Shown here in pieces: positions 2,768 through 49,083 of a DNA stretch of 56,131 nucleotides; within the stretch, counting starts at the first letter, position 1; each line of letters starts with the position of its first letter. The notes beneath the pieces were generated by a model. That model was not told the origin of the DNA. It saw only the letters and a program-made list of their open reading frames with translations, and made no database searches. Made by a program: the position numbers and the translations under genes. This DNA comes from Methylobacter sp. (GTDB lineage: Bacteria; Pseudomonadota; Gammaproteobacteria; Methylococcales; Methylomonadaceae): the NCBI GenBank assembly GCA_030679035.1, contig JAUXTH010000002.1:1-56131 (forward strand), written 5' to 3'.

Positions 2768-3403
2768 ATGGTTGATATGAATAACTTTTTGTCTTTTCAA
2801 ATTCATGGCGGAGCCGATCACGGCGGTGGTATTGCTGACGGCATTGCAAGTCTGCTGACTTTTTTTGAAGGGCTCACAGCTCAGGATTCACCGGGTATTT
2901 TTCCGGCATTAATGCCCGGCCTATCCAGTATGGATAATATTCATCCGTTGCTGGTGCATTTCCCGATTGCATTTTTATCGGCTTTTTTTGCATTGGACGT
3001 GGTCGGCACGCTGGCTAAAAAACCGCAATGGCGCAATGTTGCCAGTTGGTTGCTGTATTTGGGTACTGTAGCCGCCGTCTTTACGGTGACTGCCGGTTTC
3101 ATTGCCGCAGGTTCCGTCGCGCATGGGGATGATGTTCATGCGATCATGGAGCGGCATGAGCATTTCGGCGTATCCGTGCTGTCTTTGGCGATTCTATTGT
3201 CGGCTTGGCGCTTAAAAAGTGGCGGAGTCATAGAGGGTGGAGCTAACAGTTTTTTTCTGATATTGGCGGCATTGCTCTGTGTGTTGATGATGTTGGGCGC
3301 TGATTTAGGCGGCTTGATGGTTTATAAATATGGAGTGGCCGTTAAAGCCGCTCAAGTTCAGGATATTGGTGTTCATGAGCATGTTCATGAACACGAACAT
3401 TAA
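2768..3403 (+). CDS. DUF2231 family membrane protein
   Basis: The 211-residue protein has about four hydrophobic segments and a family-typical opening motif, [14 protein letters not shown], which starts the first membrane helix. This matches DUF2231, whose function is not settled. Further helices follow around [27 protein letters not shown] and [14 protein letters not shown]. The C-terminus ends in a histidine-rich tail (HEHVHEHEH) that could bind a metal ion, which is an inference. The frame is open 19 codons upstream, but ATG 2768 is the better start because the extra residues look like non-coding leader. ATG 2777 is an alternative. Confidence 0.75.
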
Positions 3404-3501
3404 TAAATACTATAAGGCCGTTTCCGCTTAAATTTAAAAGCATTTTGAAATTTTGGGCTGTATTGCAAACTCAGCATCGTTAAATTTTTTAGTCTTATTG
3501 A

Positions 3502-3539
3502 ACACAAGGCCGATTTTACATCGGCCTTGTGTTTTTTAT
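3502..3539 (+). terminator. Strong intrinsic terminator after the DUF2231 gene
   Basis: A perfect 13-bp stem (3502-3514 pairing with 3520-3532; left arm ACACAAGGCCGAT) closes a 5-base loop and is followed by TTTTT. It separates the truA/DUF2231 unit from the trp genes. Confidence 0.9.
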
Positions 3540-3633
3540 GGGCTAAATTAATGATGATTACAGGCAAATTATGGTGCTGTTTTATGTTATTCTAGGCGGC
3601 TAGCTTTTTTGGTTAAATTTCTCATATCACTTT

Positions 3634-4266
3634 ATGCGAACTCGCGTTAAAATTTGCGGCTTTACCCGTGTTGAAGATGCTGTTTGTGCGGCTCGGTTAG
3701 GCGTGGATGCAATCGGTCTGGTGTTTTATCCGCCCAGTCCGAGAAATGTTGATATTGAGCAAGCGGTTGAAATTGTTAAGGCTTTGCCGGCATTTGTCTC
3801 GGTAGTCGCTTTGTTTGTCGACGAGCAGGAGTCGAGGATACGCGAGGTTCTGCAACGGGTATCGATCGATTGCTTGCAATTTCATGGCGATGAATCCCCC
3901 GAGGCTTGCAGGCTTTATGGCAAGCGTTATATGAAGGCGGTGAGGATGCAGGAGGGAATCGATATTTCAGACTTGGCTCTGCAATATCACGATGCGACAG
4001 GGTTGCTGTTGGATGCGTATTATCCGGGCGCGAAAGGCGGTACAGGCAGCCGGTTTGACTGGGAGTTGATTCCTGAACATTGCGCCTTGCCTATCGTATT
4101 GGCGGGTGGTTTAGATGAGAATAACGCTAGACAGGCGGTGCAGGCGGTAAGACCTTATGCGCTGGATGTCAGCAGCGGTGTCGAAGCGGAAAAAGGTGTA
4201 AAGGATGCGCTAAAAATGGCGGCATTCATACGTGAAGTTAACGAGGGTGACAGAATAATAATATGA
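3634..4266 (+). CDS. trpF: Phosphoribosylanthranilate isomerase
   Basis: TrpF converts N-(5'-phosphoribosyl)anthranilate to CdRP, the third step of tryptophan synthesis from chorismate. The 210-residue TIM barrel shows KICGFTR near the start with the catalytic cysteine, the phosphate-binding GGTGSRFDW region, LAGGL, and DVSSGVE at the C-terminal end. It is monofunctional and not fused to trpC. The TGA stop overlaps the trpB ATG (ATGA), indicating translational coupling. No leader peptide with tandem Trp codons is visible upstream, so classical trp attenuation is unlikely at this promoter. Confidence 0.96.
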
Positions 4267-7295: not shown

Positions 7296-8567
7296 ATGAT
7301 ACATTTTGATTCGCTACAGGGTTGGCTGAAATGGCAGGAAAGCTTACATCCTTTAGTCATTGATTTGGGTTTGGAGCGGGCGGCGCAGGTTTTTCGCGCG
7401 CTTAACCCTGATTACATCAAGCCTCCGACCCTTACTGTCGCCGGAACCAATGGCAAAGGCTCAACCGTCGCGTATCTTGAGGCCATATACACCGCGCAGG
7501 GCTATCGGGTGGGGTCTTATACGTCGCCGCATATTCTGAAATATAATGAAAGAATAAAAATAGACGGCAAGCCGGTATCGGACGACCAAATTTGCGAGGC
7601 CTTTGCAAGAATTGAGTCGGTACGAGGCAATACTTCATTAAGCTATTTTGAATTCGGCACACTGGCGGCATTGGACATATTCTGCCGTGCCGGAGTCGAT
7701 GTTCAATTGCTTGAGGTCGGTCTGGGCGGGCGATTGGATGCGGTCAATATTGTCGATCCCGATGTCGCATTGATCACCAGCATTAGCATCGATCATGTCG
7801 AGTGGCTGGGTGGCACAAGGGAAGCCATCGGACGGGAAAAAGCCGGTATTTTCCGGGCAGCAGTCCCTGCCATCATAGGCGATCCAGACCCCCCAGAATC
7901 ATTGATACAGAGCGCTATTGAGCAGCAGGCCTTGCTGTATTGTATCGATAAGGATTTTGGCTATAAGAAACAGCCAACAGGATGGGATTGGTATGGGGCC
8001 GGCAGGCAAATGCTACAATTACCGGAACCGGCTTTAAAAGGGGAGCACCAGTATCGCAATGCATCGGCGGTTATTTTAGCGCTGACTCAGATGGACGGGA
8101 TATTGCCGGTAACTGAAGCATCGATTAAACAGGGACTGAGAAATGTCCGGTTAGCCGGCCGGTTTCAACTTATCGATGGCGAAATCCCTGTGCTGCTGGA
8201 TGTGGGGCATAATCCCCAGGCAGTCAAAACGCTGGCTGATTACTTGACGGCTGTTTTTCCCGGCAGACGCGTCCATGCTGTTTTTTCTATGATGAAAGAC
8301 AAGGACATTGCCGGCGTTCTTGAGATTATGAATCATGTGGTTTACGACTGGTTTTTTGCGCCTTTGGCGAATCCCCGAACGGCTACGGAATCGGTTATGC
8401 GTGAGATTTTTTCACAAAGTTCGGTGCCCAGGGTTTCTTTTGGTTTTGCTGGTTTTACTGAGGCATTTTCTGCTGCAAAAAACCAGTCGCGCGAAGGCGA
8501 TCTGTTACTGGTTTTTGGATCTTTCTTTTTGGTATCTGAGTGCTTGGTTGAATTTGAGAATAAGTGA
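7296..8567 (+). CDS. folC: Bifunctional folylpolyglutamate/dihydrofolate synthase
   Basis: FolC ligates glutamate to dihydropteroate and extends polyglutamate chains on folates, using ATP. The 423-residue protein has the Mur-ligase P-loop GTNGKGST at 50-57. Family landmarks follow: SYTSPHI, the LLEVGLGGRLDAVN segment, the SISIDHVEWLG box, and DVGHNPQA in the C-terminal domain. It lies between accD and dedD, as in other gammaproteobacteria. folP is not found in this window. Confidence 0.96.
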   Translation: MIHFDSLQGWLKWQESLHPLVIDLGLERAAQVFRALNPDYIKPPTLTVAGTNGKGSTVAYLEAIYTAQGYRVGSYTSPHILKYNERIKIDGKPVSDDQICEAFARIESVRGNTSLSYFEFGTLAALDIFCRAGVDVQLLEVGLGGRLDAVNIVDPDVALITSISIDHVEWLGGTREAIGREKAGIFRAAVPAIIGDPDPPESLIQSAIEQQALLYCIDKDFGYKKQPTGWDWYGAGRQMLQLPEPALKGEHQYRNASAVILALTQMDGILPVTEASIKQGLRNVRLAGRFQLIDGEIPVLLDVGHNPQAVKTLADYLTAVFPGRRVHAVFSMMKDKDIAGVLEIMNHVVYDWFFAPLANPRTATESVMREIFSQSSVPRVSFGFAGFTEAFSAAKNQSREGDLLLVFGSFFLVSECLVEFENK

Positions 8568-8576
8568 GTAGACGAA

Positions 8577-9653
8577 ATGGATCATGAATTAAAACAACGT
8601 TTGATTGGTGCGGTCGTGGTTACGGCCTTATGTGCTATTTTTATCCCGATGCTGTTCGATGATCCTGTCGATAATAGTGGTCAGTTAGTCAGCGAGTTGA
8701 GTATTCCTGCTCCAGTTGATTCAGGCGCAGATACTGCCGGTAAATTGCCGAGCAATGCAGAGCAGGTTTTAAAATCGACGGATCCTGAGCCTTTATCGAC
8801 CGAAACTGCGGGCGATACGATTGAGAGTACCGGCGCAGCCGAAGAAGCGGCCGAACCTGATGCTGGTCAGCCGAAACAGGGCCATTCAGGAGAGTCTTTG
8901 TATGCCGAATCCGAAGGCTATGGCAAAGAAGATGCCGGTGCGGAAGAGGTCGTTGAACCTGTAGATAAGCAGCAGCCAAAGCCGCGTTCAAAGCAGGCTC
9001 CAGCAGAGCAGTCCTTCGATTCCGCTCAGGGCAAGCCTTTATCGACAGATGCCGCCCGCGCCAAACAAGCCAGGGACGAAGCCATCGCTAAAGAAGCGGC
9101 AAAGATTAAAAAAGCCGCAGAGACGGTAAAACCAACGGCTGTCACTAAAGATGGCGCAAGTGTCGTAAGCGCTAAGGAAGCAATTCGACCTGCGGTTAAA
9201 AAGCCTGACAAATCCGCCGGGAGCGGATTTGCACGCGAAGCGCCCGAAGGGGGGCGGGCAGGGATAGCCCAGCCTGACATTGAACCTCCAGTGGCCGCGA
9301 AGGTTGAAGGGGCCAAAGCAGGCGCTTTAGAAACGCCTAAACAACTTAATACTGCGAAAAGCCTGGCTGCCGCTGTAGCGGAAGCAAAAAAACCGGAAGT
9401 TGCACCGAAAACGAGTCCAAAATTGGTGCGCTGGTATATTCAACTTGGCAGTTTCAGTAAAAGAGAAAATGCAATGTCTCTTTGGGATAGCTTGCGCGAA
9501 CAAGGCTTGCCCGCTTCGCTGGATACTGTTCAAACAGACAAAGGAACTTCATATCGTCTCCGGGTAGGACCAGAGCTTGACGGAAAAAAAGCGGCGGCAA
9601 TGAAGGCAAGACTGGATAAACAGAACATAAAGGCAATTTTGGTTTCTGAGTGA
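8577..9653 (+). CDS. dedD: SPOR-domain cell-division protein (DedD-like)
   Basis: This 358-residue protein has an N-terminal cytoplasmic stub and a single membrane helix (about 9-27). A long, low-complexity linker rich in Ala, Glu and Lys (about 30-285) follows, then a C-terminal SPOR domain (about 285-358; WYIQLGSFSKRENA and YRLRVGPELDG). SPOR domains bind denuded septal peptidoglycan, so a division-septum role in the periplasm is likely. The linker is longer than in Escherichia coli DedD. It contains a GC-rich stretch (9210-9275) that looks unlike its surroundings. Confidence 0.88.
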   Translation: MDHELKQRLIGAVVVTALCAIFIPMLFDDPVDNSGQLVSELSIPAPVDSGADTAGKLPSNAEQVLKSTDPEPLSTETAGDTIESTGAAEEAAEPDAGQPKQGHSGESLYAESEGYGKEDAGAEEVVEPVDKQQPKPRSKQAPAEQSFDSAQGKPLSTDAARAKQARDEAIAKEAAKIKKAAETVKPTAVTKDGASVVSAKEAIRPAVKKPDKSAGSGFAREAPEGGRAGIAQPDIEPPVAAKVEGAKAGALETPKQLNTAKSLAAAVAEAKKPEVAPKTSPKLVRWYIQLGSFSKRENAMSLWDSLREQGLPASLDTVQTDKGTSYRLRVGPELDGKKAAAMKARLDKQNIKAILVSE

Positions 9654-36757: not shown

Positions 36758-36907
36758 GTTTGCTAGAATGAAAATGCAAAGAAAGGATCGAGATTAGAAG
36801 TGCGGTACAGCAAAATAATTAAACTATACTTAAGTAATTAAACGTAGGATGATGTAATATTCGTGCATAGTTTTGCTTTAAAAAATTAGAGATTAATGGA
36901 GAAAACA

Positions 36908-37270
36908 ATGGCAAGTATTCTTGCAGTTGACGATTCAGCTTCAATGAGAAAAATGGTTTCATTTACTTTAAGAGCTGCTGGATACGATGTCGAGGAAGCG
37001 GTAGATGGGGTTGATGCTTTAGAAAAAGCGCAAGTCAGGAAATTTGATTGTGTAGTAACCGATGTCAATATGCCAAATAAAGACGGGATCACTTTAATTA
37101 GAGATTTGCGAGCACTCCCCGATTATAAATTTATTCCCATGCTGATGCTGACGACCGAGTCAGGAATCGAAAAGAAACAAGAAGGTAAAGCCGCCGGCGC
37201 AACGGGGTGGATGGTAAAACCTTTCAATCCTGATCAATTATTAAAAACATTACTAAAAGTTTTGGGTTAG
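36908..37270 (+). CDS. cheY: Chemotaxis response regulator CheY
   Basis: CheY is a 120-residue single receiver domain that carries the signal from CheA to the flagellar motor. The acidic pair D8-D9, phospho-acceptor D52 (VVTDVNMPNKDG), conserved Thr in MLTTES and Lys in MVKPFNP are all present. ATG 36908 has GGAG 6 bases upstream and is preferred over ATG 36896. It heads the chemotaxis cluster, after a 150-bp AT-rich leader. Confidence 0.9.
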   Translation: MASILAVDDSASMRKMVSFTLRAAGYDVEEAVDGVDALEKAQVRKFDCVVTDVNMPNKDGITLIRDLRALPDYKFIPMLMLTTESGIEKKQEGKAAGATGWMVKPFNPDQLLKTLLKVLG

Positions 37271-37322
37271 CCGATGCTATCGTGCCTAAGTGTGTTAAGC
37301 GCATGCGCAGCAGGATAAGTCT

Positions 37323-37436
37323 ATGCCTATTGATATGCCCAGCTATTCGGAATGTTTGGGTGAATGGTTTAGTTGTTTGCCTAGGCAGGAATCAATCAAG
37401 AAAGTTTTTTGGGTTACGTTAATCTTGTTTAAATGA
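37323..37436 (+). CDS. 37-codon ORF copying the cheA start
   Basis: This short ORF begins MPIDMPSYSECLGEW, close to the CheA N-terminus (MSIDMSQF... then EECFEGL). The 22 bp 37316-37337 repeat at 37454-37475 with one mismatch. It ends at TGA 37434, 24 bp before cheA. It may be a decayed partial duplication of the CheA HPt start, or a leader peptide coupled to cheA. It has no independent domain. Confidence 0.4.
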   Translation: MPIDMPSYSECLGEWFSCLPRQESIKKVFWVTLILFK

Positions 37437-37460
37437 ATTCAGGCGCATACAGGTAAGTCT

Positions 37461-39566
37461 ATGTCTATTGATATGTCACAATTCCATCAGGTCTTTTTTG
37501 AAGAATGTTTCGAAGGCCTGGAAGCAATGGAGTCAGGATTGTTAACTCTCGATATGGGAGATATTGATTCAGAAATAATCAATACCATTTTCAGGGGAGC
37601 GCACTCGATCAAAGGCGGCAGTGGAACTTTTGGTTTTACCGTTGTTGCCGAATACACCCATATTATGGAAACCCTACTCGATGAAATGCGGGATGGGCGT
37701 AGGCAGGTAACCCAGCCCGCAGTTGATGTTTTGCTTGGATCTGTTGACTGTCTTAGAGAGATGTTGACTGCAATACAAAATGAGCAGGATGTTAATAATG
37801 CTAGCGTAGCAAAGCACAAAACCGCTTTGGAAGTTGTGCTTAATGGCGGGGCGGTAGCGGAAGAATCAGCCCCCCCTGTCGAACAGGAGTCGATTAGTGA
37901 AGAGGTTGTTGCCAATATTGTTCCTGATATGCCTGAAGAAGAACCCGTTGAGGCTCAAGAGCAGGGCTGGAAAATAGCTTTTTGCCCTTATTTGGATTTA
38001 CTTAAAACCGGCAATGATCCGGTTAGACTATTTCGAGAACTGAATGAGCTAGGTGATTTAACGACCGTTGCTAATATTCAGGACGTTCCAGGTTTTTATG
38101 AAATAGATCCCGAGGAATGCAATATTTCTTGGGATTTAAAAGTTGTCGGAGATATTTCCGCTGATGAAATCAGGGAGATATTCAATTGGGTTGAAGGCGA
38201 CTGTGAAATGGAAGTTCAACCGCTTGCCAAAGCCGCAAAACCAGCCCCCGCCGTAAAAGAAATCGATCCTGAACCAGCAGCAATCACACCTACTAATCCA
38301 GCCCCAAAACCTGCTGAAGTTAAAGCCAAGGTGACTACGGAAACCAAAAAATCGGATACCCAAGATTCTGAAAATGAAGCGGCAAAAACCACGGCAAAAG
38401 CCAGTTCGATTCGGGTAGATACGGATAAAATTGATACCTTGATCAATATGGTTGGCGAAGTTGTGATCACCCAATCCATGCTGGGTTTAGTCGGTGAAAA
38501 CTTTAGCATGGATAAGGTGGGGCAACTTAAAAGAGGGCTTGCCCAATTAGAGCGGCATACCCGGGATCTACAGCAAAGCGTCATGAATATTCGGATGCTG
38601 CCAATTAGTTTTGTTTTTAGCCGTTTTCCACGCTTAGTACACGATATCAGCAGTAAATTAGACAAAAAAATTGTATTGAAACTGGTCGGGGAAAATACCG
38701 AAGTTGATAAAGCCGTTGTTGAGCTGATCAATGATCCTTTGGTTCACTTGATTAGGAATAGTCTGGATCATGGTATAGAAATGCCTGCGGACAGGGTTGC
38801 AGCCGGAAAGCCTGAAACAGGAACCATAGAGCTGAGGGCGTATCATCGAGGCGGTCACATTGTTATAGAAATTATCGATGATGGTCGTGGGTTAAATAAA
38901 GATAAGCTGCTGGCAAAGGCCATAGAAAAAGGCTTGATTGAAGAAAATAACTTACTGACCGAAAAACAGATATTCGAATTGATCTTTATGCCCGGTTTTT
39001 CTACGGCTGAACAGCTCACCGATATTTCCGGTCGCGGTGTGGGTATGGATGTGGTCAGGAGAAACATCCAGTCATTGGGCGGTAATATAGAAATTATTTC
39101 GGAGCTGGGTAAGGGCACAACGATCGCGATCCATTTGCCGCTAACGCTGGCTATTCTTGACGGTCAATCTGTTGCGGTGGGAGATGAAACCTATATCGTA
39201 CCGTTAGTTTCCATTATTGAGTCGATTAACATTACGGAAAGAATGTTGAATAAAGTTGCAGGTAAAGGGGAAACTTTTCGCTTACGCAACGAATATTTAC
39301 CTGTTATTAGAATGCGCAATATTTTTAATGTTCATTCGGGTAACCCGACTAAGTCTAAAGAGGGTGTCCTTGTGGTCGTCGAGGGGCAAGGTGAGATGTG
39401 TTGTTTGCTCGTAGATGAGTTATTAGGTCAACAACAGGTTGTTATTAAGTCATTGGAAGCAAATTACCGACGGGTGGAAGGTGTTTCAGGGGCAACCATT
39501 TTGGGTGATGGTTCTGTTGCGCTGATTCTTGACGTTCCAGGTTTGGTGCGTTTTTCAATTCGATAA
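37461..39566 (+). CDS. cheA: Chemotaxis histidine kinase CheA
   Basis: CheA autophosphorylates on the HPt domain and feeds CheY and CheB. Domains of the 701-residue protein are: P1 HPt (about 1-105) with phospho-acceptor H48 in AHSIKGGSGTFG; a middle domain (about 165-265; WKIAFCPYLDLLKTGNDP) of the type seen in some CheA proteins; an acidic/proline linker; P3 dimerisation (about 325-385); P4 ATPase with N-box NSLDHGIE, G1 DDGRGL and G2 GRGVGMD; and P5 CheW-like (about 565-701). All catalytic boxes are intact. The start codon region is duplicated 138 bp upstream. Confidence 0.96.
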   Translation: MSIDMSQFHQVFFEECFEGLEAMESGLLTLDMGDIDSEIINTIFRGAHSIKGGSGTFGFTVVAEYTHIMETLLDEMRDGRRQVTQPAVDVLLGSVDCLREMLTAIQNEQDVNNASVAKHKTALEVVLNGGAVAEESAPPVEQESISEEVVANIVPDMPEEEPVEAQEQGWKIAFCPYLDLLKTGNDPVRLFRELNELGDLTTVANIQDVPGFYEIDPEECNISWDLKVVGDISADEIREIFNWVEGDCEMEVQPLAKAAKPAPAVKEIDPEPAAITPTNPAPKPAEVKAKVTTETKKSDTQDSENEAAKTTAKASSIRVDTDKIDTLINMVGEVVITQSMLGLVGENFSMDKVGQLKRGLAQLERHTRDLQQSVMNIRMLPISFVFSRFPRLVHDISSKLDKKIVLKLVGENTEVDKAVVELINDPLVHLIRNSLDHGIEMPADRVAAGKPETGTIELRAYHRGGHIVIEIIDDGRGLNKDKLLAKAIEKGLIEENNLLTEKQIFELIFMPGFSTAEQLTDISGRGVGMDVVRRNIQSLGGNIEIISELGKGTTIAIHLPLTLAILDGQSVAVGDETYIVPLVSIIESINITERMLNKVAGKGETFRLRNEYLPVIRMRNIFNVHSGNPTKSKEGVLVVVEGQGEMCCLLVDELLGQQQVVIKSLEANYRRVEGVSGATILGDGSVALILDVPGLVRFSIR

Positions 39567-39586
39567 GACAATAGACAAAAGCAGAT

Positions 39587-40105
39587 ATGGCACAAGAAGC
39601 TGAAAATAAAGATATTGACCAATATCACTATAGTAAAAACCTGGATAACGCAGTGCAATATTTGAGTTTTGCCTTAGGCAAAGAAGAATATGGCGTTGAT
39701 ATTCTTCGCGTCCAGGAAATACGAAGCTGGGAGCCTGTTTCCAGAATACCTAATGTTCCTAGCTACGAAAAAGGTGTTGTTAATTTACGCGGATCCATTG
39801 TGCCTATTCTCGATTTGAGAGAAAGGTTTAGCTTGAGTAAAGCCGAATACACTCCGTTGACGGTAGTTGTGGTATTGCAAACCGGTGATAGCAACAAGAC
39901 ACGTATTATGGGGGTGGTTGTCGACTCGGTCTCTGATGTAATCAGCGTGGATAAAACTGAAATTCAAGGTGCCCCCGACTTTGGCGCTAAGGTAAGTAAC
40001 GAATTCATTAACGGACTGGTATCGGTTAATGAGCGCATGGTGATGCTGCTTGATGTGGATAAATTACTGAAGTTAGAAGAATTGGATCAGGATGAAAGTC
40101 AATGA
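39587..40105 (+). CDS. cheW: Chemotaxis adaptor CheW (first copy)
   Basis: CheW links receptors to CheA. The 172-residue protein has a single CheW domain after a 28-residue polar extension: YLSFALGKEEYGVDILRVQEIRSWE, then NVPSYEKGVVNLRGSIVPILDLRERF. The conserved RGSIVPILDLR strand is intact. It follows cheA by 20 bp. It is related to but distinct from the second CheW in this cluster, which suggests the two adaptors have different partners. Confidence 0.94.
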   Translation: MAQEAENKDIDQYHYSKNLDNAVQYLSFALGKEEYGVDILRVQEIRSWEPVSRIPNVPSYEKGVVNLRGSIVPILDLRERFSLSKAEYTPLTVVVVLQTGDSNKTRIMGVVVDSVSDVISVDKTEIQGAPDFGAKVSNEFINGLVSVNERMVMLLDVDKLLKLEELDQDESQ

Positions 40106-40154
40106 TGTTTAACGTATTTGTCATGATGAGTGAAATTTTAAGAGGTAATGTGGC

Positions 40155-42503
40155 ATGAAGATAAATATGCCGTTAACTAATAATGAAGTCATTCTGAAAA
40201 AGGGTACCATCCTGGTTTCAAGAACCGATTTAATGGGACGTATTACCTATGTCAATGACGCATTTGTCGAAACCAGCGGTTTTACCCGTGATGAGCTGAT
40301 GGGCGCGGAACATAACATCGTCCGCCATCCTGACATGCCTGAGGCTGCTTATGAAGAGCTATGGATGACCTTAAAACAGCTTAGACCCTGGCAAGGAATG
40401 GTGAAGAACAGATGTAAAAACGGCGATCATTACTGGGTCGAAGCCAATGCCATGCCGTTATTTAAAGATGGGAAAGTCTATGAGTACCTTTCTGTTCGGC
40501 ACCCTCCAAAGCGTGATGCCATTCCAGCAACTGAGATGCTGTATAAGAAAATCAGTGCCGGCGAAATAAAATTAAGGCCGACTGGTTTAGCAGCAATATC
40601 TAAATCGATTAGCGAAATTGCAATAACGAAAAAGAATGCTTTTATAGTATCCGCATTTTTGGCACCTATTTTTTTTCTGATGTACCGATTGTTTCTGACC
40701 CAGGAGTATGGCTTGATGGTCGGGGTTGCCTTGCTAGCCACGATGGCATCGGCGCTCAGCATCAATATGACCAAAGTAATAACTGACACGCTGGAAACTG
40801 CGATCACTATTTGTTACCGGCTAAGCAGCGGAAGCTTCGGAAATAAAGTGAATTTAAAACGGGAAGATCAGCTGGGCGATTTTTTGCGGGGCTTGTACTG
40901 CATGGAAGTCAAGCTCGGTGTGGATTTGGCCGATTACAAACAAGGTCTCGCTGACTCCAAACGGATTACCCAAGCTCTGGATAATGTCCATAACGGTGTC
41001 ATGGTAGCGAATAAGGGTTTTGAAATCATCTACCTGAACGAGAGTATTCAGAAGATATTCAAGGTGGCAGAAAGTGATATTCGCAAACAGTTACCTGATT
41101 TTTCCGCTGATAAATTGATGGGTTCCAATATTGATTTGTATCATAAAAACCCTGCTTACCAGCGTGGCATCTTAGAAAAATTACAGGAATCATTCAGGAC
41201 GGAACTGGTCATCGCCGGTCGGTATATGACTGTTATCGCCAGTCCCGTTAATGGCGATGGCGGCGAACGTATTGGTTATGTTGCTGAATGGGAGGATAGA
41301 ACCCATGAGGTTTTAATTGAGAAAGAAATTGACCAGTTAGTGCAAGGCGTTAAAGCTGGCGACTTGAGTGCCCGCATAAAATTAAGTGACCAACAAGGAT
41401 TTACTAAAACACTGTCTGCCGGTATCAATGAATTAACGGATGTCATTGAAAGTGTGTTTAGCGATGTTAACAGGGTGATGGAGAATATGGCTGAAGGCGA
41501 TTTAACTGTCGCCATCACCAATGAATATCAAGGTGTCTATGCTGAATGCAAGAATAATATTAATGACACTTTAGCAAAGCTTAGTGAATTTATTATTCAA
41601 ATCAGGGATGCCGCTGATTTTATAGATAGTTCATCGCAAGAAATGGCAAGCGGTAATAACAATCTGTCGCATCGAGCTGAACAACAGGCGGCCAGCCTGG
41701 AAGAAACGGCTGCCAGTATGGAAGAGTTGGCTAGTACTGTAAAAAATAATGCACAGAATACGGTTCAAGCGACTGAGGTTGTTGAATCAGCAAGTCAATT
41801 AGCTCAAAAAGGCGGCGGCATAGTTAAGTCAGCTATCGCTGCGATGCAGGAAATTAATGAAAGCAGCAATAAAATTGCCGAAATTATTGGTGTAATTGAT
41901 GAGATTGCATTCCAAACCAATCTGTTGGCATTAAACGCGTCTGTGGAAGCGGCCAGGGCCGGAGAGCAGGGGCGTGGATTCTCGGTTGTGGCAACAGAAG
42001 TTCGTAATCTGGCGCAACGAAGCGCAACCGCCGCACAGCAAAGTAATGAACTGATCCAGAATAGTGTGCAGAAAGTTCGTGCCGGAACAGCATTCGTTAA
42101 TGAAACCGGTGCCGCGTTAACTGAAATTGTCGAAAGCGTTGCGAAAGTGGGTGACATTGTTGCGCACATTGCCAGTGCAAGTTCAGAGCAATCCTCGGGT
42201 ATCGAGCAAGTCAATCAAGCGGTTTCGCAAATGGACGATATTACCCAGCAAAATGCGGCTTTGGCAGAACAGGCTGCCGCAGGCAGCATTGCCATGAGTG
42301 AACAGTCTACCAATATGACCCAGCTGCTAAGTTTCTTTAGAGTCAGTTCAAAGGGTGGGGCTGCAACTACTAGACCAGGCGCACGGAGTAAGGTTCCTGT
42401 AGCACCGGTAAGACCAACAGTAACAGCAAAAAAACCTGTCGCTCCCGTTATATCATCAAGCAAGCCTAAAAGTGATAGCAGTGACGAGTGGGAAGAGTTT
42501 TAA
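40155..42503 (+). CDS. Aer-like PAS chemoreceptor
   Basis: The 782-residue receptor has PAS1 (about 8-115), whose [17 protein letters not shown] and [14 protein letters not shown] segments strongly resemble the FAD-binding PAS of Escherichia coli Aer. Two membrane segments (about 157-200; [15 protein letters not shown] and [14 protein letters not shown]) form an anchor with no periplasmic ligand domain. A HAMP, a second PAS (about 270-385), HAMP-like helices and the MCP signalling domain follow, with tip [19 protein letters not shown] (about 582-600). The protein ends in EWEEF, which fits the xWxxF CheR/CheB tethering pentapeptide. A redox or oxygen-taxis receptor is likely. FAD binding is inferred from similarity. 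Confidence 0.92.
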
Positions 42504-42548
42504 TGTTGTTTAAGCAGAAAACTATATAACCGACAGGAAACTATAACA

Positions 42549-43040
42549 ATGACAACAGATGTGCAGTCAAATAATAGTCGGGTAGAGCAATTTCTCACCT
42601 TTCAACTCGCAGGCGAAGCCTATGGAGTTGAGATTTTGAAAGTACAAGAGATTCGTGGTTGGGAAACTGTTCGTGTGATACCGAATACGCCGGCTTTTGT
42701 TAAAGGCGTGCTGAATTTACGCGGATCCGTCGTGCCTATCATAGACTTACGGGAACGCTTTTCTCTGGAGCACTGTGAATACTCCCCCAAAACGGTAGTT
42801 ATTGTGCTTTGTGTTGAGCATGGTGCAAGCCAGTTTGTAATGGGCATAGTGGCTGATGCGGTTTCTGATGTACTGGATATTAACCTGGAAGACATCAAAA
42901 AATCCCCAAACTTCGGTTCAAAAATTGATACGCGTTACATGCGAGGCATGCATGTGTATAAGAAAAAGATGATCATGCTCTTAGACGTTGACAAATTGCT
43001 CAATCCCGATGAGGTTGAAGGTATTGAAAGTTTGGTATGA
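42549..43040 (+). CDS. cheW: Chemotaxis adaptor CheW (second copy)
   Basis: A second, 163-residue single-domain CheW with QFLTFQLAGEAYGVEILKVQEIRGWE and FVKGVLNLRGSVVPIIDLRERF. Its stop overlaps the parA start (ATGA), so it is translationally coupled to parA-STAS. The first copy belongs to the cheA group. This arrangement hints at a role in recruiting the ParA/STAS pair, which is inference. Confidence 0.93.
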   Translation: MTTDVQSNNSRVEQFLTFQLAGEAYGVEILKVQEIRGWETVRVIPNTPAFVKGVLNLRGSVVPIIDLRERFSLEHCEYSPKTVVIVLCVEHGASQFVMGIVADAVSDVLDINLEDIKKSPNFGSKIDTRYMRGMHVYKKKMIMLLDVDKLLNPDEVEGIESLV

Positions 43041-43810
43041 CGGTGAAAATTGTTGCAATAATTAATCAGAAAGGTGGTGTTGGCAAGACGACTACAACGG
43101 CAAATTTATGTCATGCCATTGCAGAATCAGGCTTAAAAGTTACCGCTATCGATCTAGATCCGCAAGGCCATTTAGCTGTTTCTTTAGGTATTACGGCACA
43201 AGGTCTTGGCGGTATTGATGAAGCGATGTTGAAAAAGAAAAACGTTCAGCAGCAGCTTATTCTCGTCAGGGATAATTTGCAATTAATTACATCAGGATCA
43301 AGGCTTAAGGATATTGAGCAGCTCGCCGACAATACTTCACCTCGCGGTGTTTTATTAAAAAATGCCTTGCATGGGAACTTTAACGATCAGGACTTTGTTT
43401 TCATTGATTGTCCACCGTCCTCTGGATTGTTGGTTGCCAATGCATTGATTGTAGCTGACGAAATCTTAATTCCTATGGCCAGTGATTTTCTTGCATTGCA
43501 AGGACTGTCTCATTTAATGGGCACGATTAAGCGATTTGAAAAGGCTTTGCAAAGGAAATATAAAACATTATTGGTGATGTCGCGCTATTCGCCCAATAGA
43601 AGAATATCGCGTCAGGTGTTAAATGTTCTGCTTACGCATTTTCCCGAGCAAATATTAGCGACTGTTATTAGAGAAACGGCATTGCTTGCAGAATGTCCCA
43701 GCTTTGGTAAAACAATTTTAGAATATAGTCCGAAAAGTCGTTCGGCAAGGGATTTTCGTAGCCTTGCTCATGATTTTCTTGAAGACAAGGTGATGTATGG
43801 CAACAAGTGA
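43037..43810 (+). CDS. parA: ParA family ATPase in the chemotaxis cluster
   Basis: The 257-residue deviant Walker-type ATPase has the P-loop KGGVGKTTTTANL near residue 12 with the signature lysine, a second acidic segment FVFIDCPPSSGLL, and a C-terminal DNA- or membrane-binding part. ParA-like proteins position chemotaxis arrays or other cargo in several bacteria (for example ParC in Vibrio, PpfA in Rhodobacter). It is coupled to cheW upstream and overlaps the STAS gene by 14 bp. No ParB or centromere site was seen. Confidence 0.88.
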   Translation: MTVKIVAIINQKGGVGKTTTTANLCHAIAESGLKVTAIDLDPQGHLAVSLGITAQGLGGIDEAMLKKKNVQQQLILVRDNLQLITSGSRLKDIEQLADNTSPRGVLLKNALHGNFNDQDFVFIDCPPSSGLLVANALIVADEILIPMASDFLALQGLSHLMGTIKRFEKALQRKYKTLLVMSRYSPNRRISRQVLNVLLTHFPEQILATVIRETALLAECPSFGKTILEYSPKSRSARDFRSLAHDFLEDKVMYGNK

Positions 43811-44399
43811 AGAAAATGATTTAATCGGGTACGATCCGCTAGCGTGGATGGAAGGCAATGCCAGTCAAAATGAAGAAACAATCGATAATGAACTGGACGG
43901 ACAGCACCTGATCAATGAAGAGATTACCATGGCCGCTGCCGATGATTATCCAGACGATTTGATGGCAAATGTTGAACAAAGTGCAGATTTATCTGTCCTG
44001 GATGATGCCGAAGTAGATGTAGAAGAAGATGAAATTGGCATAGATGAAATGCCGGATGAAATCGATACTGTTGTTGCTGATGAAACAGTTACCGGGGATT
44101 TGACGCCTGATGAATCGACCGCGGGACCACAGATTGATTTAGACGCAACGTTGACTATTCAGAATGTTGTCAAGTTGCACGAAAAACTAAAGGATTCTTT
44201 TGCTATACATGACGAAATCGAAATAAATGCATCTGATGTATCGTCAATAGATACAGCTACTTTGCAGTTGCTCGTTTCGATGAAAAAAGAAGCAGCTAAA
44301 CAGCAAAAGCAAGTAACCATTATTTACCCGTCCCCGCGATTTGTTGAGTCTGCCCGGTTGCTGGGTTTGGCGGACGTGCTTGACGTTCATGATGCGTGA
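43797..44399 (+). CDS. STAS-domain protein with acidic N-terminus
   Basis: The 200-residue protein has a highly acidic N-terminal half (about 1-115; runs of D and E such as DVEEDEIGIDEMPDEID) and a C-terminal STAS domain (about 116-200). The STAS core is IQNVVKLHEKL ... IEINASDVSSIDTATLQLLVSMKKEA. The usual phosphorylatable Ser position is not clear. It is translationally coupled to parA, overlapping it by 14 bp. The acidic arm might bind ParA or other array proteins. Function in chemotaxis is inferred only from position. Confidence 0.7.
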   Translation: MATSEENDLIGYDPLAWMEGNASQNEETIDNELDGQHLINEEITMAAADDYPDDLMANVEQSADLSVLDDAEVDVEEDEIGIDEMPDEIDTVVADETVTGDLTPDESTAGPQIDLDATLTIQNVVKLHEKLKDSFAIHDEIEINASDVSSIDTATLQLLVSMKKEAAKQQKQVTIIYPSPRFVESARLLGLADVLDVHDA

Positions 44400-44427
44400 T
44401 TTTTGACGAACGGGAAGTAGTTTAAAG

Positions 44428-45267
44428 ATGGCCATTGTTGAGAAGGATCGCGAATTTAAATTTACTGCTGATGACTTTAATTTTTTAAGAAAACTATCCA
44501 ATGAGCATTCAGGAATTCAGGTTCCTGATGAAAGATTTGATATGTTTTATTCCAGATTGTCCAAGCGGGTAAGGAAACTTGGATTGGCGGATTTTAAGGA
44601 ATACTGCCAGTATCTTAAAGATTACCCGGATCACGAGTTTACTGAGTTTATCAACGCGATAACAACCAACCTAACCGCTTTTTTTAGGGAAATGCATCAT
44701 TTTGATTATGTCCGTGATGTTGTTATTCCTGAAATTTTGGTTAGGAATAAAACTTCTAAGCAAATCAGGGTGTGGTCTGCCGGCTGTTCTACGGGTGAAG
44801 AACCTTACTCTTTAGCGATTACCTTGTTGGAAAATGTACCCGCAGACTGGGATATTAAGATTTTAGCAACTGACTTAGACACCAATGTTTTAAAAACGGC
44901 ATCGGAGGGTATCTATACCGAAGATCGCGTCAGCGATATGCCTGAAGAAATTCTTAAGCAGTGGTTTATGCGAGGTAAATCATCACAGTCCGGTCAAGTA
45001 AAGGTAAGGCCCCAGTTACAACAAATCATTCAGTTTAAAAAATTAAATTTGATGCAAGATTGGCCGATGAAATGCCATTTCGACTTTATTTTTTGTCGCA
45101 ATGTTCTTATTTACTTTGATCGCGAAACCAAGACATCGCTCGCGAAAAGATATGCTCAAATGTTGTCCAGCAGGTCATGGTTATTTATTGGGCATTCAGA
45201 ATCATTAAACCAACTCTCAAATGAATTTGAATTGGTTGCATGTACCAGTTACAGGAAAAATACGTAA
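44428..45267 (+). CDS. cheR: Chemoreceptor glutamate methyltransferase CheR
   Basis: CheR uses SAM to methylate receptor glutamates for adaptation. The 279-residue protein has an N-terminal helical domain (about 1-95) and a SAM-binding domain with SAGCSTGEEPYSLAI, LATDLDTNVLKTA and FCRNVLIYFD. The upstream receptor ends in a pentapeptide that fits CheR tethering. The order cheR-cheD-cheB matches a usual adaptation module. Confidence 0.95.
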   Translation: MAIVEKDREFKFTADDFNFLRKLSNEHSGIQVPDERFDMFYSRLSKRVRKLGLADFKEYCQYLKDYPDHEFTEFINAITTNLTAFFREMHHFDYVRDVVIPEILVRNKTSKQIRVWSAGCSTGEEPYSLAITLLENVPADWDIKILATDLDTNVLKTASEGIYTEDRVSDMPEEILKQWFMRGKSSQSGQVKVRPQLQQIIQFKKLNLMQDWPMKCHFDFIFCRNVLIYFDRETKTSLAKRYAQMLSSRSWLFIGHSESLNQLSNEFELVACTSYRKNT

Positions 45268-45273
45268 ATACTC

Positions 45274-45912
45274 ATGAGTGCTAGTAAGGATATTGGTCGA
45301 CCCTCCATCGACGGTTTTGAACACATTAACCGATATATGGATAGAGAGCGTGGTGTGGTTGCCGCAAAAATTTTGCCCGGTGAATACTATGTAACTCAGG
45401 AAGATGAATTGATTACAACCGTATTAGGCTCTTGTATATCGGCCTGTATTCGGGACAAGGTATCAGGCTTGGGCGGCATGAATCATTTTATGTTGCCGGA
45501 AACCACAGCCGATAAGCTAAAACATGGCAATGAAGCGGTTGTCGGTAATGCGACCCGGTATGGAAATTATGCTATGGAGCATTTAATTAATACTATTTTG
45601 ATGAATGGCGGCAAAAGAAAGAATTTGGAGGTCAAGGTGTTTGGCGGCGGTAAAATCATTCCAACCTTGACCGATGTCGGCCTTAAAAATATTGACTTTA
45701 TTTTGGATTATATTGATACCGAAGGGTTGCCTTTATTATCCCAGGACTTGGGTGATATTTATCCCAGGAAAATAATTTATTTCCCTAAAACAGGGAAAGT
45801 AGGGATGAAAAAGATCGAGCATTTGCACAACGATACAATTGTAAGAAGAGAGCGGCAGTACTTTAACGATATTAAAAATGCGCCTGTTGAGGGTGATGTT
45901 GAGCTTTTTTAA
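45274..45912 (+). CDS. cheD: Chemoreceptor glutamine deamidase CheD
   Basis: CheD deamidates receptor glutamines and helps set receptor activity. The 212-residue protein has the catalytic cysteine in VLGSCISACIRD and histidine in GGMNHFMLP, in the canonical Cys-His-Thr arrangement. Its last codons and stop region are partly copied upstream of the full cheB gene, so its 3' end marks one edge of a tandem duplication. Confidence 0.94.
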   Translation: MSASKDIGRPSIDGFEHINRYMDRERGVVAAKILPGEYYVTQEDELITTVLGSCISACIRDKVSGLGGMNHFMLPETTADKLKHGNEAVVGNATRYGNYAMEHLINTILMNGGKRKNLEVKVFGGGKIIPTLTDVGLKNIDFILDYIDTEGLPLLSQDLGDIYPRKIIYFPKTGKVGMKKIEHLHNDTIVRRERQYFNDIKNAPVEGDVELF

Positions 45913-45921
45913 GAGTATGCA

Positions 45922-46341
45922 ATGAGCAAAATACGTGTATTGATTATTGATGATTCATTGTTAATCAGGAAGGTACTGACTGAGATTTTGAATTCGTCTG
46001 CGGATATTGAGGTTGTAGGTACCGCAGAAGATCCTCTTATTGCCAGAGAGATGATTAAAGAATTAAATCCAGATGTTTTGACCTTGGATATCGAAATGCC
46101 GCGTATGGATGGAATTACGTTTTTGCGTAATTTGATGCGACTTCGGCCTATGCCTGTTGTGATGATTTCAGCGCTTACAGAAAGCAATGCTGAAGTTACC
46201 TTAACTGCTCTGGAACTGGGCGCAGTCGATTTTATCGCTAAGCCAACTGCTGATGTGGAAAACGCATTGAATGACTATGCCGAGGACATAATTACCAAGG
46301 TAATAGTTGCTTCACAGGCTAATATCAGAAAACTTGAGTAA
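45922..46341 (+). CDS. Receiver-only CheB paralogue
   Basis: A 139-residue single receiver domain with D10-D11, phospho-acceptor D56 ([12 protein letters not shown]), Ser in MISAL and Lys in FIAKP. By hand count about four of five residues match the receiver of the full CheB that follows. The methylesterase domain is entirely missing, and the protein stops just after the receiver. It may act as a phosphate sink or CheA partner, or be a decaying duplicate. All phosphorylation residues are kept, which favours function. Confidence 0.9.
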
Positions 46342-46426
46342 TGAGAAACTTTGGAGGATCGTGCTGGATATTACACGAAAAATGTGTGTGGATATCAGCA
46401 TAAAAACCTCGGAAATGTAATGTAAA

Positions 46427-46496
46427 ACGGTAGCAATGTAATATTAAAAATGCACCTATTGAGGGTGTGACGATGAGCTTCTTTTAGAGTGGATTT
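46427..46496 (+). repeat. Second copy of the cheD 3' end
   Basis: The stretch before cheB (TATTAAAAATGCACCTATTG..., then GAGCTTCTTTTAGAGT) repeats the end of cheD and its junction at about 45866-45917 (ATTAAAAATGCGCCTGTTG, then GAGCTTTTTTAAGAGT) with a few changes. It marks the left edge of the tandem duplication unit. The rest of 46342-46426 shows no coding potential. Confidence 0.8.
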
Positions 46497-47615
46497 ATGG
46501 GTAAGATACGCGTATTGGTTATTGATGATTCTGCATTGATCAGGAAAATACTGACTGAAGTTTTAAGTTCGTCGCCCGATATTGAGGTTGTCGGTGCAGC
46601 AGCAGATCCCCTTATTGCCAGGGAAATGATTAAGCAATTAAATCCAGACGTATTGACGCTGGACATTGAAATGCCGCACATGGACGGGATAACTTTCTTA
46701 AGTAACCTGATGCGCTTAAGGCCGACTCCGGTTGTGATGATCTCCACGCTGACTGAACATGGTGCAGAAGCGACTTTAAATGCGTTGGCGCTGGGAGCGG
46801 TCGATTTTATTGCCAAACCCAAAGTTGATGTGGTCAATACGCTGAATGAATACGCCGAGGAAATTATTTCCAAGGTCATCGTTGCGGCACAAGCGAAAGT
46901 AGGCAATGTCTACACTAGAACGGCTAAACCTAAAAGTCATGGCGCAGCTGTTCCCGAGATTTCAGAGAAACATTCAGTCGATGTGATTCTGAAAGCGGCA
47001 CCTGTAAAAACACATATTAGTCCCACTAATAAGATAATTGCCTTAGGCGCTTCGACGGGGGGAACGGAAGCCATTAAAGCAGTTGTTAAAGGATTTCCAG
47101 CAGATACCCCGCCTATTTTAATAACCCAGCATTTACCCGCTGCATTTAGTCAGTCATTTGTTCGGCATATTGACCTGGCAACGGAAATGTCAGCCTGTAT
47201 TCCCCAACATGGTCAGACGGTTGAACCGGGTAATATTTATCTTTCACCTGGAGACAAGCACATGCTGGTGATTAGAGAGGGAGGTAAATATGTTATCCAA
47301 CTGAGCGATGGACTGCCGGTTAATCGCCATAAACCTGCGGTTGATGTCCTGTTTAGATCGGTCGCTCAATGTGCGGGCGCTAATGCCATTGGCGTGCTAT
47401 TAACAGGAATGGGCGCTGATGGTGCAATGGGCATGAAAGAAATGCATGACGCGGGTGCTAAAACAGTTGTCCAGGATGAAAAATCCAGCGTGGTTTGGGG
47501 TATGCCGGGGGCTGCGTTCAAGTTGGGTTGTACTGACTATGTGGTATCGTTAGAAGAAGTGTCGAATAAAGTTTTAAGCTTGGTTAAGCCCGGCAGTATT
47601 GGCAAGGCTCACTAA
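46497..47615 (+). CDS. cheB: Protein-glutamate methylesterase CheB
   Basis: CheB removes methyl groups from receptors and is activated by CheA. The 372-residue protein has an N-terminal receiver (about 1-120) with D10-D11 and D56, a linker, and a C-terminal methylesterase domain. The catalytic Ser is in ALGASTGGTEA, His in ITQHLP, and Asp in LLTGMGADGAMGM. All are intact. It is the full partner of the receiver-only copy just upstream. Confidence 0.96.
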   Translation: MGKIRVLVIDDSALIRKILTEVLSSSPDIEVVGAAADPLIAREMIKQLNPDVLTLDIEMPHMDGITFLSNLMRLRPTPVVMISTLTEHGAEATLNALALGAVDFIAKPKVDVVNTLNEYAEEIISKVIVAAQAKVGNVYTRTAKPKSHGAAVPEISEKHSVDVILKAAPVKTHISPTNKIIALGASTGGTEAIKAVVKGFPADTPPILITQHLPAAFSQSFVRHIDLATEMSACIPQHGQTVEPGNIYLSPGDKHMLVIREGGKYVIQLSDGLPVNRHKPAVDVLFRSVAQCAGANAIGVLLTGMGADGAMGMKEMHDAGAKTVVQDEKSSVVWGMPGAAFKLGCTDYVVSLEEVSNKVLSLVKPGSIGKAH

Positions 47616-47713: not shown

Positions 47714-48322
47714 ATGACTAATCAGACTAAATCACAATTTATTGCAGTCGCTTCCATTACCTCGGAGTTAAGCGCGGTCATGGTGGTAGCTAAAGAAATA
47801 TCGTTAGCGGCGGCCAATGCCAAGGCTATTGCATTCAGGGCCGGAGATAAAGCCAAGGGATTTCAACCAATTACCGACTTCATTAATGAATTGGCTAAAG
47901 AAACGATTGAGCTGGTTACTAATATCAATATTTATGCATTGGTATTGTATCGATTGACGGTCGATGAGTATCAAAAAACGGCTGCTTATAATAAATTTGA
48001 GTTGGCAGCGAAAATGGCTGAAGGTGCCGTTTATGCCAAATCGATGCAGGAGCCTGTGGATCATGCAAGGCTTTCAATGCAAGATTGCCAACGGCAGTTC
48101 AAACGGGATGTCTCGCAACTGCTGGGTCAACTTGAGGCAGTCATGCATCATGCACGTGCCGCACGGGTTATTGCCGCAAACTCAAGAATTGAAGCATCAC
48201 AGGCGGGTGAATATTTGCAGAGCCTGCAAGCCGTTGCTGAAAGTGTAGATAAAGCTGCACATACCATTCATGATAATGTGCAGCGTTGCAGAATCGCATT
48301 ATCCATTTATCGCAATAGCTGA
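47714..48322 (+). CDS. Soluble protein with two chemoreceptor-tip-like motifs
   Basis: I do not recognise a named family. The 202-residue, helix-rich protein has no membrane segment. Two segments resemble the MCP hairpin tip of the receptor in this cluster. Segment 30-50 (SLAAANAKAIAFRAGDKAKGF) keeps the N, R, AG and GF positions. Segment 151-166 (RVIAANSRIEASQAGE) keeps the N, E, AG and E positions. By hand alignment each shares 11 or 12 of 35 positions with the receptor tip. The part between (about 70-145) is polar and helical. It lies 98 bp after cheB and 32 bp before the ODP gene, so a chemotaxis role, such as CheW/CheA binding, is inferred. Confidence 0.55.
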   Translation: MTNQTKSQFIAVASITSELSAVMVVAKEISLAAANAKAIAFRAGDKAKGFQPITDFINELAKETIELVTNINIYALVLYRLTVDEYQKTAAYNKFELAAKMAEGAVYAKSMQEPVDHARLSMQDCQRQFKRDVSQLLGQLEAVMHHARAARVIAANSRIEASQAGEYLQSLQAVAESVDKAAHTIHDNVQRCRIALSIYRNS

Positions 48323-48354: not shown

Positions 48355-49083
48355 ATGAAAATGACCAAGATATATGAAGGATCGCACCAATGGATCATGT
48401 TTGGAAGGGATGAAGGGAAACCCGATAACATAATCGATACCAACCAATATGTGGTACGTACCCCTAACCGCTGCCTGCTTTTGGATCCAGGCGGCGCTGA
48501 GTTGTTTGCACCGATGATGGCCGCTGTGTTGCATCATGCCCCCGTGGATCAAATAACCGATCTGTTTGCTTCGCATCAGGATCCTGACGTGATCTCATCA
48601 CTGGGTTTATGGGATCAAGCCTTAACCAATGCCAAGCTCCATGCGCCAGCCATTTGGGAAGGTTTTTTGCGGCATTACAGCTGTGAATCAATAGAATATG
48701 TGCCAATTCCGGATAATGGCGGAACCATTAAATTGGAGTCTGTGGAATTGCAGCTTATTCCGGCTCATTATTTGCATTCACCCGGAAATTTTCATGTCTA
48801 TGATCCACAAGCCAAAATCCTGATGACAGGAGATGTCGGTGCGGCTTTTGAGGCTCCTGACGCTCCCGTGTTTGTTGATAATTTTGCGGCACATGTTGAA
48901 AAAATGCGTCATTGGCATCAACGAATGATGCCGTCGAATCAGGCAAAAAGAGTCTGGATTGAGCGGGTAAGAAACATGGATATCGATATTTTGGCTCCGC
49001 AGCATGGGCGGATGTTTAAAGGTGATGATGTCAAACGCTTTTTAGACTGGTTTGATGCATTACAGGTAGGTATTGCAGTTTAA
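48355..49083 (+). CDS. ODP-like di-iron oxygen-binding protein (MBL fold)
   Basis: The 242-residue metallo-beta-lactamase fold protein shows the metal ligands H74, D76 and D78 in SHQDPD, H138 in PAHYLHS, D160 in MTGDVGAAF, and H217 in PQHGRMF. The HxDPD form, rather than HxHxDH, is typical of ODP, the oxygen-binding di-iron protein linked to chemotaxis in Treponema denticola. There is no flavodoxin or rubredoxin domain, so it is not an oxygen reductase such as a full flavodiiron protein. Its place at the end of a chemotaxis cluster supports an oxygen-sensing role. The start is ATG 48355. Confidence 0.82.
   Translation: MKMTKIYEGSHQWIMFGRDEGKPDNIIDTNQYVVRTPNRCLLLDPGGAELFAPMMAAVLHHAPVDQITDLFASHQDPDVISSLGLWDQALTNAKLHAPAIWEGFLRHYSCESIEYVPIPDNGGTIKLESVELQLIPAHYLHSPGNFHVYDPQAKILMTGDVGAAFEAPDAPVFVDNFAAHVEKMRHWHQRMMPSNQAKRVWIERVRNMDIDILAPQHGRMFKGDDVKRFLDWFDALQVGIAV

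Follow-up and report, generated by a model that had tools for sequence, protein, structure and literature searches.

A short soluble protein with two chemoreceptor tip motifs, encoded beside an oxygen-binding diiron protein and probably connecting it to chemotaxis

A stretch of 56,131 nucleotides from Methylobacter sp. (assembly GCA_030679035.1, contig JAUXTH010000002.1), here called the window, encodes a small protein, X, which carries two segments homologous to the hairpin tip of chemoreceptors, the methyl-accepting chemotaxis proteins (MCPs). Its gene (47714..48322, + strand) starts with ATG and specifies a soluble chain of 202 residues, predicted to fold by itself into a four-helix bundle. 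At 32 bases downstream lies the gene for a 242-residue homologue of the oxygen-binding diiron protein, ODP (48355..49083, + strand). X is probably the plug that connects this oxygen/iron sensor to the chemotaxis machinery. More precisely, tip homology, predicted fold, the pairing of the two genes and a comparison with Treponema lead us to favour, with moderate confidence, the view that X would be the dedicated mini-receptor of ODP, docking the sensor on CheA/CheW arrays.

Two receptor tips in one short chain

The conserved core of the MCP hairpin tip reads N...E..R.GE..GRGF. A first-pass annotation of the window, made from its letters alone, had proposed that X holds two segments of this kind, and both halves of the protein do match an MCP profile, with shuffle and reversal controls. 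Motif 1 (residues about 30-60; 47801..47893, + strand) is visible to ordinary searches: the Pfam model MCPsignal (PF00015) detects it at E 6.6e-5 with 23.3 bits, and, among MCP fragments of known structure, phmmer aligns 2ch7 over residues 13-197 (E 8.7e-5) and 3ur1 and 4jpb over residues 12-71 (E 2.7e-4). Motif 2 (about 150-178; 48161..48247, + strand) becomes visible only through alignment. When an alignment of 32 family members was compared using hhalign with an MCP profile built from only 6 sequences, the first half (residues 1-100) matched at E 6.5e-11, against 0.3 for the reversed control, and the second (residues 101-202), whose tip falls in register, at E 1.8e-6 (reversed control, 0.11). 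Among 100 column shuffles none reached the observed score in either half (67.4 and 42.9, for shuffle maxima of 18.9 and 18.5), and removal of the motif columns brought the scores down to 13.9 and 14.5, that is, to shuffle level. PF00015 itself matches 30 of the 32 family members at E up to 0.01, with a best value of 1e-11.

The two tips do not keep the same residues. In Tsr numbering, motif 1 retains the positions of N381, R388, G390, G395 and F396 and has a hydrophobic residue in place of E385, while motif 2 retains those of N381, E385 and E391 and is devoid of R388. The profile alignment further shows motif 2 to be short by 7 residues after the tip glutamate, where the MCP tip has its GRGF part. 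Each tip thus keeps a part of the MCP core, the first without E385, the second curtailed at GRGF. The residues read at first pass, N, R and D in one segment and N, E and E in the other, were correct.

At the level of sequence, this split between the halves is a family trait. Counts were made on 134 sequences, most of them from the methanotroph order, with 32 representatives under 60% identity; they leave out the decayed copies of the source genome (L271, L272), duplicates (L247, L269), the second copies that lie in tandem at L069, L077 and L078, and L225, L239 and G046. In motif 1 asparagine stands at N381 in 134/134 sequences, arginine at R388 in 118 (22/32 representatives), glycine at G395 in 132 and phenylalanine at F396 in 133, and glutamate is never found at E385 (0/134), which is always I, V, L, M or A. 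In motif 2 it is E385 that is kept (129/134; 28/32 representatives), together with asparagine at N381 in 100 sequences (13/32 representatives), and arginine at R388 is rare (10/134; 6/32 representatives). The loss of E385 from half 1 is therefore exceptionless in this set, whereas the pattern of half 2 has exceptions. Could X be a decaying MCP fragment, or a helical protein that resembles a tip by chance? The Pfam score of the window protein, below the PF00015 gathering score of 34.6 bits, might suggest so; yet the shuffle and reversal controls, the tip residues invariant in 134 sequences, the wide conservation and the many genomes with intact relatives bearing the same motifs make this extremely unlikely.

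In a trimer-of-dimers model, ionic locks between E385 and R388′ and the stacking of F396 are inter-dimer contacts (PMC8144572). In X, therefore, the two sides of the lock mostly lie in different halves. Within arrays, a receptor dimer has one subunit at the trimer axis and the other turned toward CheA/CheW (PMC4692393). Fusion into a single chain means that two such subunit units can diverge, as seen in X.

AlphaFold2 models X with confidence as a bundle of four helices from one chain (pLDDT 91, pTM 0.82), with helices at residues 2-47, 50-101, 108-161 and 165-200, a turn at 48-49 in motif 1, another at 162-164 in motif 2, and a loop (residues 102-107; 48017..48034, + strand) that connects one hairpin to the other at the end opposite the tips. 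The models of X and of a paralogue 19% identical to it, both confident, superpose over their full length on antiparallel four-helix bundles that consist of a single chain. Both tip turns would therefore lie at one end, like the tip of a receptor dimer made in one chain, and the prediction lends support to the early suggestion that the protein folds back to mimic such a tip. X would, in this respect, be akin to the soluble single-chain MCPs, which unite a pair of receptor signalling units in a soluble protein, the units of X being given by the two tip homologies and their pseudo-dimer layout by the model. A Foldseek search against the PDB had mostly designed four-helix bundles as top matches and, among the best 50, ligand domains and whole models of MCPs at low TM-scores; it neither supports nor excludes an MCP tip fold for the modelled chain. 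Another layout is known. DosM of Vibrio cholerae, a long rod, also unites two signalling tips in a soluble chain, one at each end (PMC7534058), and X might likewise bridge two baseplates with tips at opposite ends. We hold this to be very improbable, the bundle being predicted as antiparallel with both tips at the same end, a point that comes from the model.

As noted at first pass, the chain is without membrane or sensor domain: inspection by eye reveals no membrane segment, and there is no sensing module, the predicted helices of one bundle covering residues 2-200 and no domain rising above cut-off. Nor is there a long adaptation region with methylation helices, the predicted helices of X being only 36 to 54 residues long.

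Pairing of X with ODP

The first-pass annotation had rightly placed X between cheB, which ends at 47615, and an oxygen-sensor gene. The product of the latter matches the solved ODP 6qrq, presumably that of Treponema, at E 5.1e-61, and the motifs SHQDPD, AHYLHS, SGD or TGD, and PQHG, which we take to provide metal ligands, are kept in 4/4 aligned ODPs; homology and motifs together identify it as an ODP. In 201 genomes of the methanotroph order, with cut-offs of E below 1e-20 for X and up to 1e-60 for ODP, the two were found in exactly the same 73 genomes. At all 85 ODP places X comes immediately before ODP in the same orientation, with 21-137 bases between matches, bar one at 473. Seen from the side of X, the count took the 86 best places and left out lower-ranked MCP-like matches: ODP is next to 85 of them, and the remaining one sits within an MCP frame of 514 residues. 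A set of 80 named loci, which overlaps in species with the 201 genomes, has ODP next to X in 78 cases; the other two loci end 142 and 111 bases past X. Outside the order the association persists: a phylum sample of 398 genomes yielded 5 X homologues, all 5 with ODP beside them, and in a class sample of 369 genomes ODP accompanies X at 22/22 places, spread over 21 genomes. X thus has in common with the sensorless receptors coupled to ODP its gene coupling (85/86, 78/80 and 22/22 places) and its want of a membrane or sensing module; control of CheA together with ODP, a further mark of such receptors, would be expected of it.

The pair exists in a second version in the source genome, in the order MCP-CheW-X2-ODP2, where X2 is 19% identical to X. 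It is also found on plasmid records, X adjoining ODP in 2/2: in a 0.92-Mb replicon of Pseudoalteromonas xiamenensis X overlaps the downstream gene by 4 bases, and in plasmid pPN3F2_1 of Shewanella aestuarii a gap of 2 bases separates X from the next gene. There, X is annotated as 'chemotaxis protein' or 'hypothetical protein', and its neighbour as 'MBL fold metallo-hydrolase'. Across 37/37 loci the distances between X proteins follow those between ODPs (Spearman 0.85, a value that 0 of 999 permutations attained), which points to joint inheritance, not to contact. X is much less conserved than ODP (mean identity of 26% versus 60%, 37 loci). Finally, among 26 loci examined closely, ODP is present at 24, the two others being decayed copies of the source genome.

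Several loci are worth describing for themselves. The source genome has a third ODP-like gene (L235, contig C113; 39% identity, E 3.3e-55, under cut-off), without an adjoining X. At L226, L227, L229 and L230 a short open reading frame (ORF), which by eye looks like roadblock/LC7, replaces X before an ODP-like gene. L225, from a genome outside the methanotroph order, has at 3306-3986 a heavily diverged X-like gene of 226 residues (E 1.3e-6 with the X model), overlapping an ODP gene by 4 bases. In L078 (source genome, contig C120), positions 7762-8993 hold two decayed tandem copies of X2 without ODP, beside an MCP fragment, and the longer of the two has no motif 2. L069 (6784-7401) and L077 (3431-4057) each have a second X2 in tandem, its motif 2 degenerate, upstream of an intact X2 that adjoins ODP.

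From the sensor to the kinase

Genomes that have X nearly always have CheA as well. The P3 domain of CheA is found in 72/73 of them, versus 61/128 of the other genomes of the order, in counts where related genomes are not independent and where the CheA of type IV pilus systems is included. The only X genome without a CheA match, G046, is one in which the X and ODP frames are both broken: near a contig end (L273), the N-terminal half of X is replaced by what looks by eye like a transposase sequence. It is a single case, which may reflect a fault of assembly. A chemotaxis gene is matched within the fetched flanks of 63/80 named loci, and at the other 17 these flanks show no match to CheA, CheW, CheR, CheD, CheB or an MCP; the two plasmid copies have no annotated chemotaxis neighbour. 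The homologue search called for at first pass thus returned proteins that keep the motifs, some of them away from chemotaxis genes, and those still lie beside ODP. The outcomes that the annotation had named as fatal to its proposal did not arise in the form given.

These solitary pairs, and the low conservation of X relative to ODP, could mean that X is a regulatory or stabilizing subunit of ODP that no longer enters arrays and has preserved its tip residues because they help it to fold or to hold ODP. We consider this unlikely, albeit the most serious of the alternatives: the residues of X that do not vary fall on tip positions, and in MCPs some of these make contacts between dimers; CheA accompanies X in 72/73 genomes, and the pair is broken in the one where CheA is missing.

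A sensorless receptor of Treponema denticola, TDE2496, was reportedly described in 2019 by Muok et al. as coupled with the ODP TDE2498. A later account presents TDE2496 as a receptor without membrane or sensing module, genetically coupled to ODP and able to modulate CheA, and states that loss of ODP alters the ordering of CheA (PMC7666581). ODPs in operons with MCP genes have been reported in two orders (PMC7319448, citing Muok et al. 2019). X would play the part of TDE2496 in a smaller format.

The favoured picture, in which X is the mini-receptor of ODP, can be drawn as follows. X would be what is left of a chemoreceptor when only the signalling tip is kept, both subunits of the dimer being fused into a single chain that goes from a helix through tip turn 1, a second helix and a loop to a third helix, tip turn 2 and a fourth helix. 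Its tips, side by side at one end, would enter the CheA/CheW baseplate beside ordinary receptors; binding to CheW or CheA is plausible. ODP, the product of the next gene, would attach to the bundle's body or to its end remote from the tips, and the binding of oxygen or iron in ODP might alter the position of X in trimers of dimers, or its contact with CheA/CheW, with a changed kinase output as a consequence. Labour may be divided between the halves, the first keeping the turn with R388, G395 and F396, the second E385. We infer each of these steps, that is, binding to ODP, entry into arrays, control of the kinase and division of labour. A bolder proposal, which we put forward as tentative, is that X could be a purposely asymmetric natural dimer, fusion into a single chain having let evolution endow one tip with the turn of R388, G395 and F396 and the other with the E385 half of the inter-dimer ionic lock, and that X and ODP could make a portable cassette, also carried by plasmids, that plugs oxygen/iron sensing into the existing array of its host.

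A number of observations, besides the sub-threshold Pfam score, weigh against this picture. Compared directly, the two halves are not clearly similar (E 9e-4, probability 23%, for 5e-3 and 7.5% in the reversed control), so that the internal repeat is demonstrated via MCPs, not directly. E385 has gone from motif 2 in 5/134 sequences, which makes the split in half 2 a strong tendency, not a law. No MCP tip fragment appeared among the best 50 matches of each fold search. Shared ancestry inflates the pairing counts, and the pairing holds only at strict ODP cut-offs: 17 of 20 weaker ODP-like places have no X-like frame, the other three being at a contig edge (L243), beside a degenerate X (L225) or beside a broken X-like frame (L239). 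Those 17 places, L235 and the four with a roadblock-like ORF among them, have other neighbours, so the broad metallo-lactamase family as a whole has no tie to X. Finally, cryo-electron tomography of Treponema arrays revealed no obvious position for ODP (PMC7666581).

The first-pass annotation had suggested that X may be a decoy, a linker or a seed for arrays, with no part for ODP. The predicted pseudo-dimer tip fold and the place in a che cluster agree with such a role, as does the existence of soluble single-chain MCP signalling domains whose role is not known (PMC4692393), while the pairing of X with ODP across many families argues against it, and we find a role of this sort without ODP quite unlikely. 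Of the three terms, 'linker' comes closest to a receptor coupled to ODP, which fits best because X is inherited with ODP even where no chemotaxis gene is nearby; this inheritance is what the annotation had missed. Its observation is thus confirmed, and its interpretation partly supported.

Setting, counterparts and meaning

Upstream of X the + strand carries a chemotaxis cluster from cheY (36896) to cheB (47615), that is 36896..47615, in the order cheY, cheA, cheW, PAS-MCP, cheW, parA-like, STAS, cheR, cheD, an ORF for a CheB-type receiver, and cheB, names that we assigned from reading the sequences. The receiver ORF (45922-46341, 139 residues) stands alone, 5′ of the full cheB and without methylesterase; it is also present in several relatives and is perhaps a phosphate sink. 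Scans around X gave 3 promoter-like sites for 3.6 expected and 4 terminator-like sites for 2.1 expected, with nothing decisive in either. The source genome measures 4.79 Mb. In the scan of named genomes the best 17 matches, of which 16 carry the label Methylobacter, are 93-100% identical to X.

Receptors that lack a sensor and are encoded beside ODP have already been described, and so have soluble single-chain MCPs. X shares with the TDE2496-ODP couple its status of receptor-type protein, without membrane or sensor domain, encoded with a homologous ODP; by description, it differs in its size of about 200 residues, its two tip motifs per chain and its want of an adaptation region. The MCP tip fragments 3ur1 and 4jpb (85 and 90 residues), aligned by residues 12-71 of X, are single hairpins cut from a receptor, whereas X holds two hairpins in one chain; we take both structures to be complexes with CheA P4-P5 and CheW. 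Rhodospirillum centenum and a few other organisms have soluble MCP signalling domains of the single-chain type, their role being given as unknown (PMC4692393). With these, and with the engineered Tsr~Tsr and Tar single chains of the same source, X has in common two joined signalling units; by description it is set apart by being limited to the tip region, with helices of 36 to 54 residues, diverged halves and a fixed partner gene. In the open-access literature that we searched, we found no description of a tip-only pseudo-dimer with split residues and paired with ODP, and papers under subscription, above all Muok et al. 2019, may list genes of the X type as MCPs beside ODP.

X occurs in methane-eating bacteria, where its gene adjoins that of an oxygen/iron sensor in nearly every genome examined. 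It points to a route by which a soluble oxygen sensor that lacks a receptor of its own could reach the kinase, and it offers a possible function for the soluble single-chain receptors, the role of which is called unknown in PMC4692393. X also appears to let the two roles of receptor subunits be read apart in one short chain, and separable roles of this kind would make the asymmetry of arrays, a hard question, testable.
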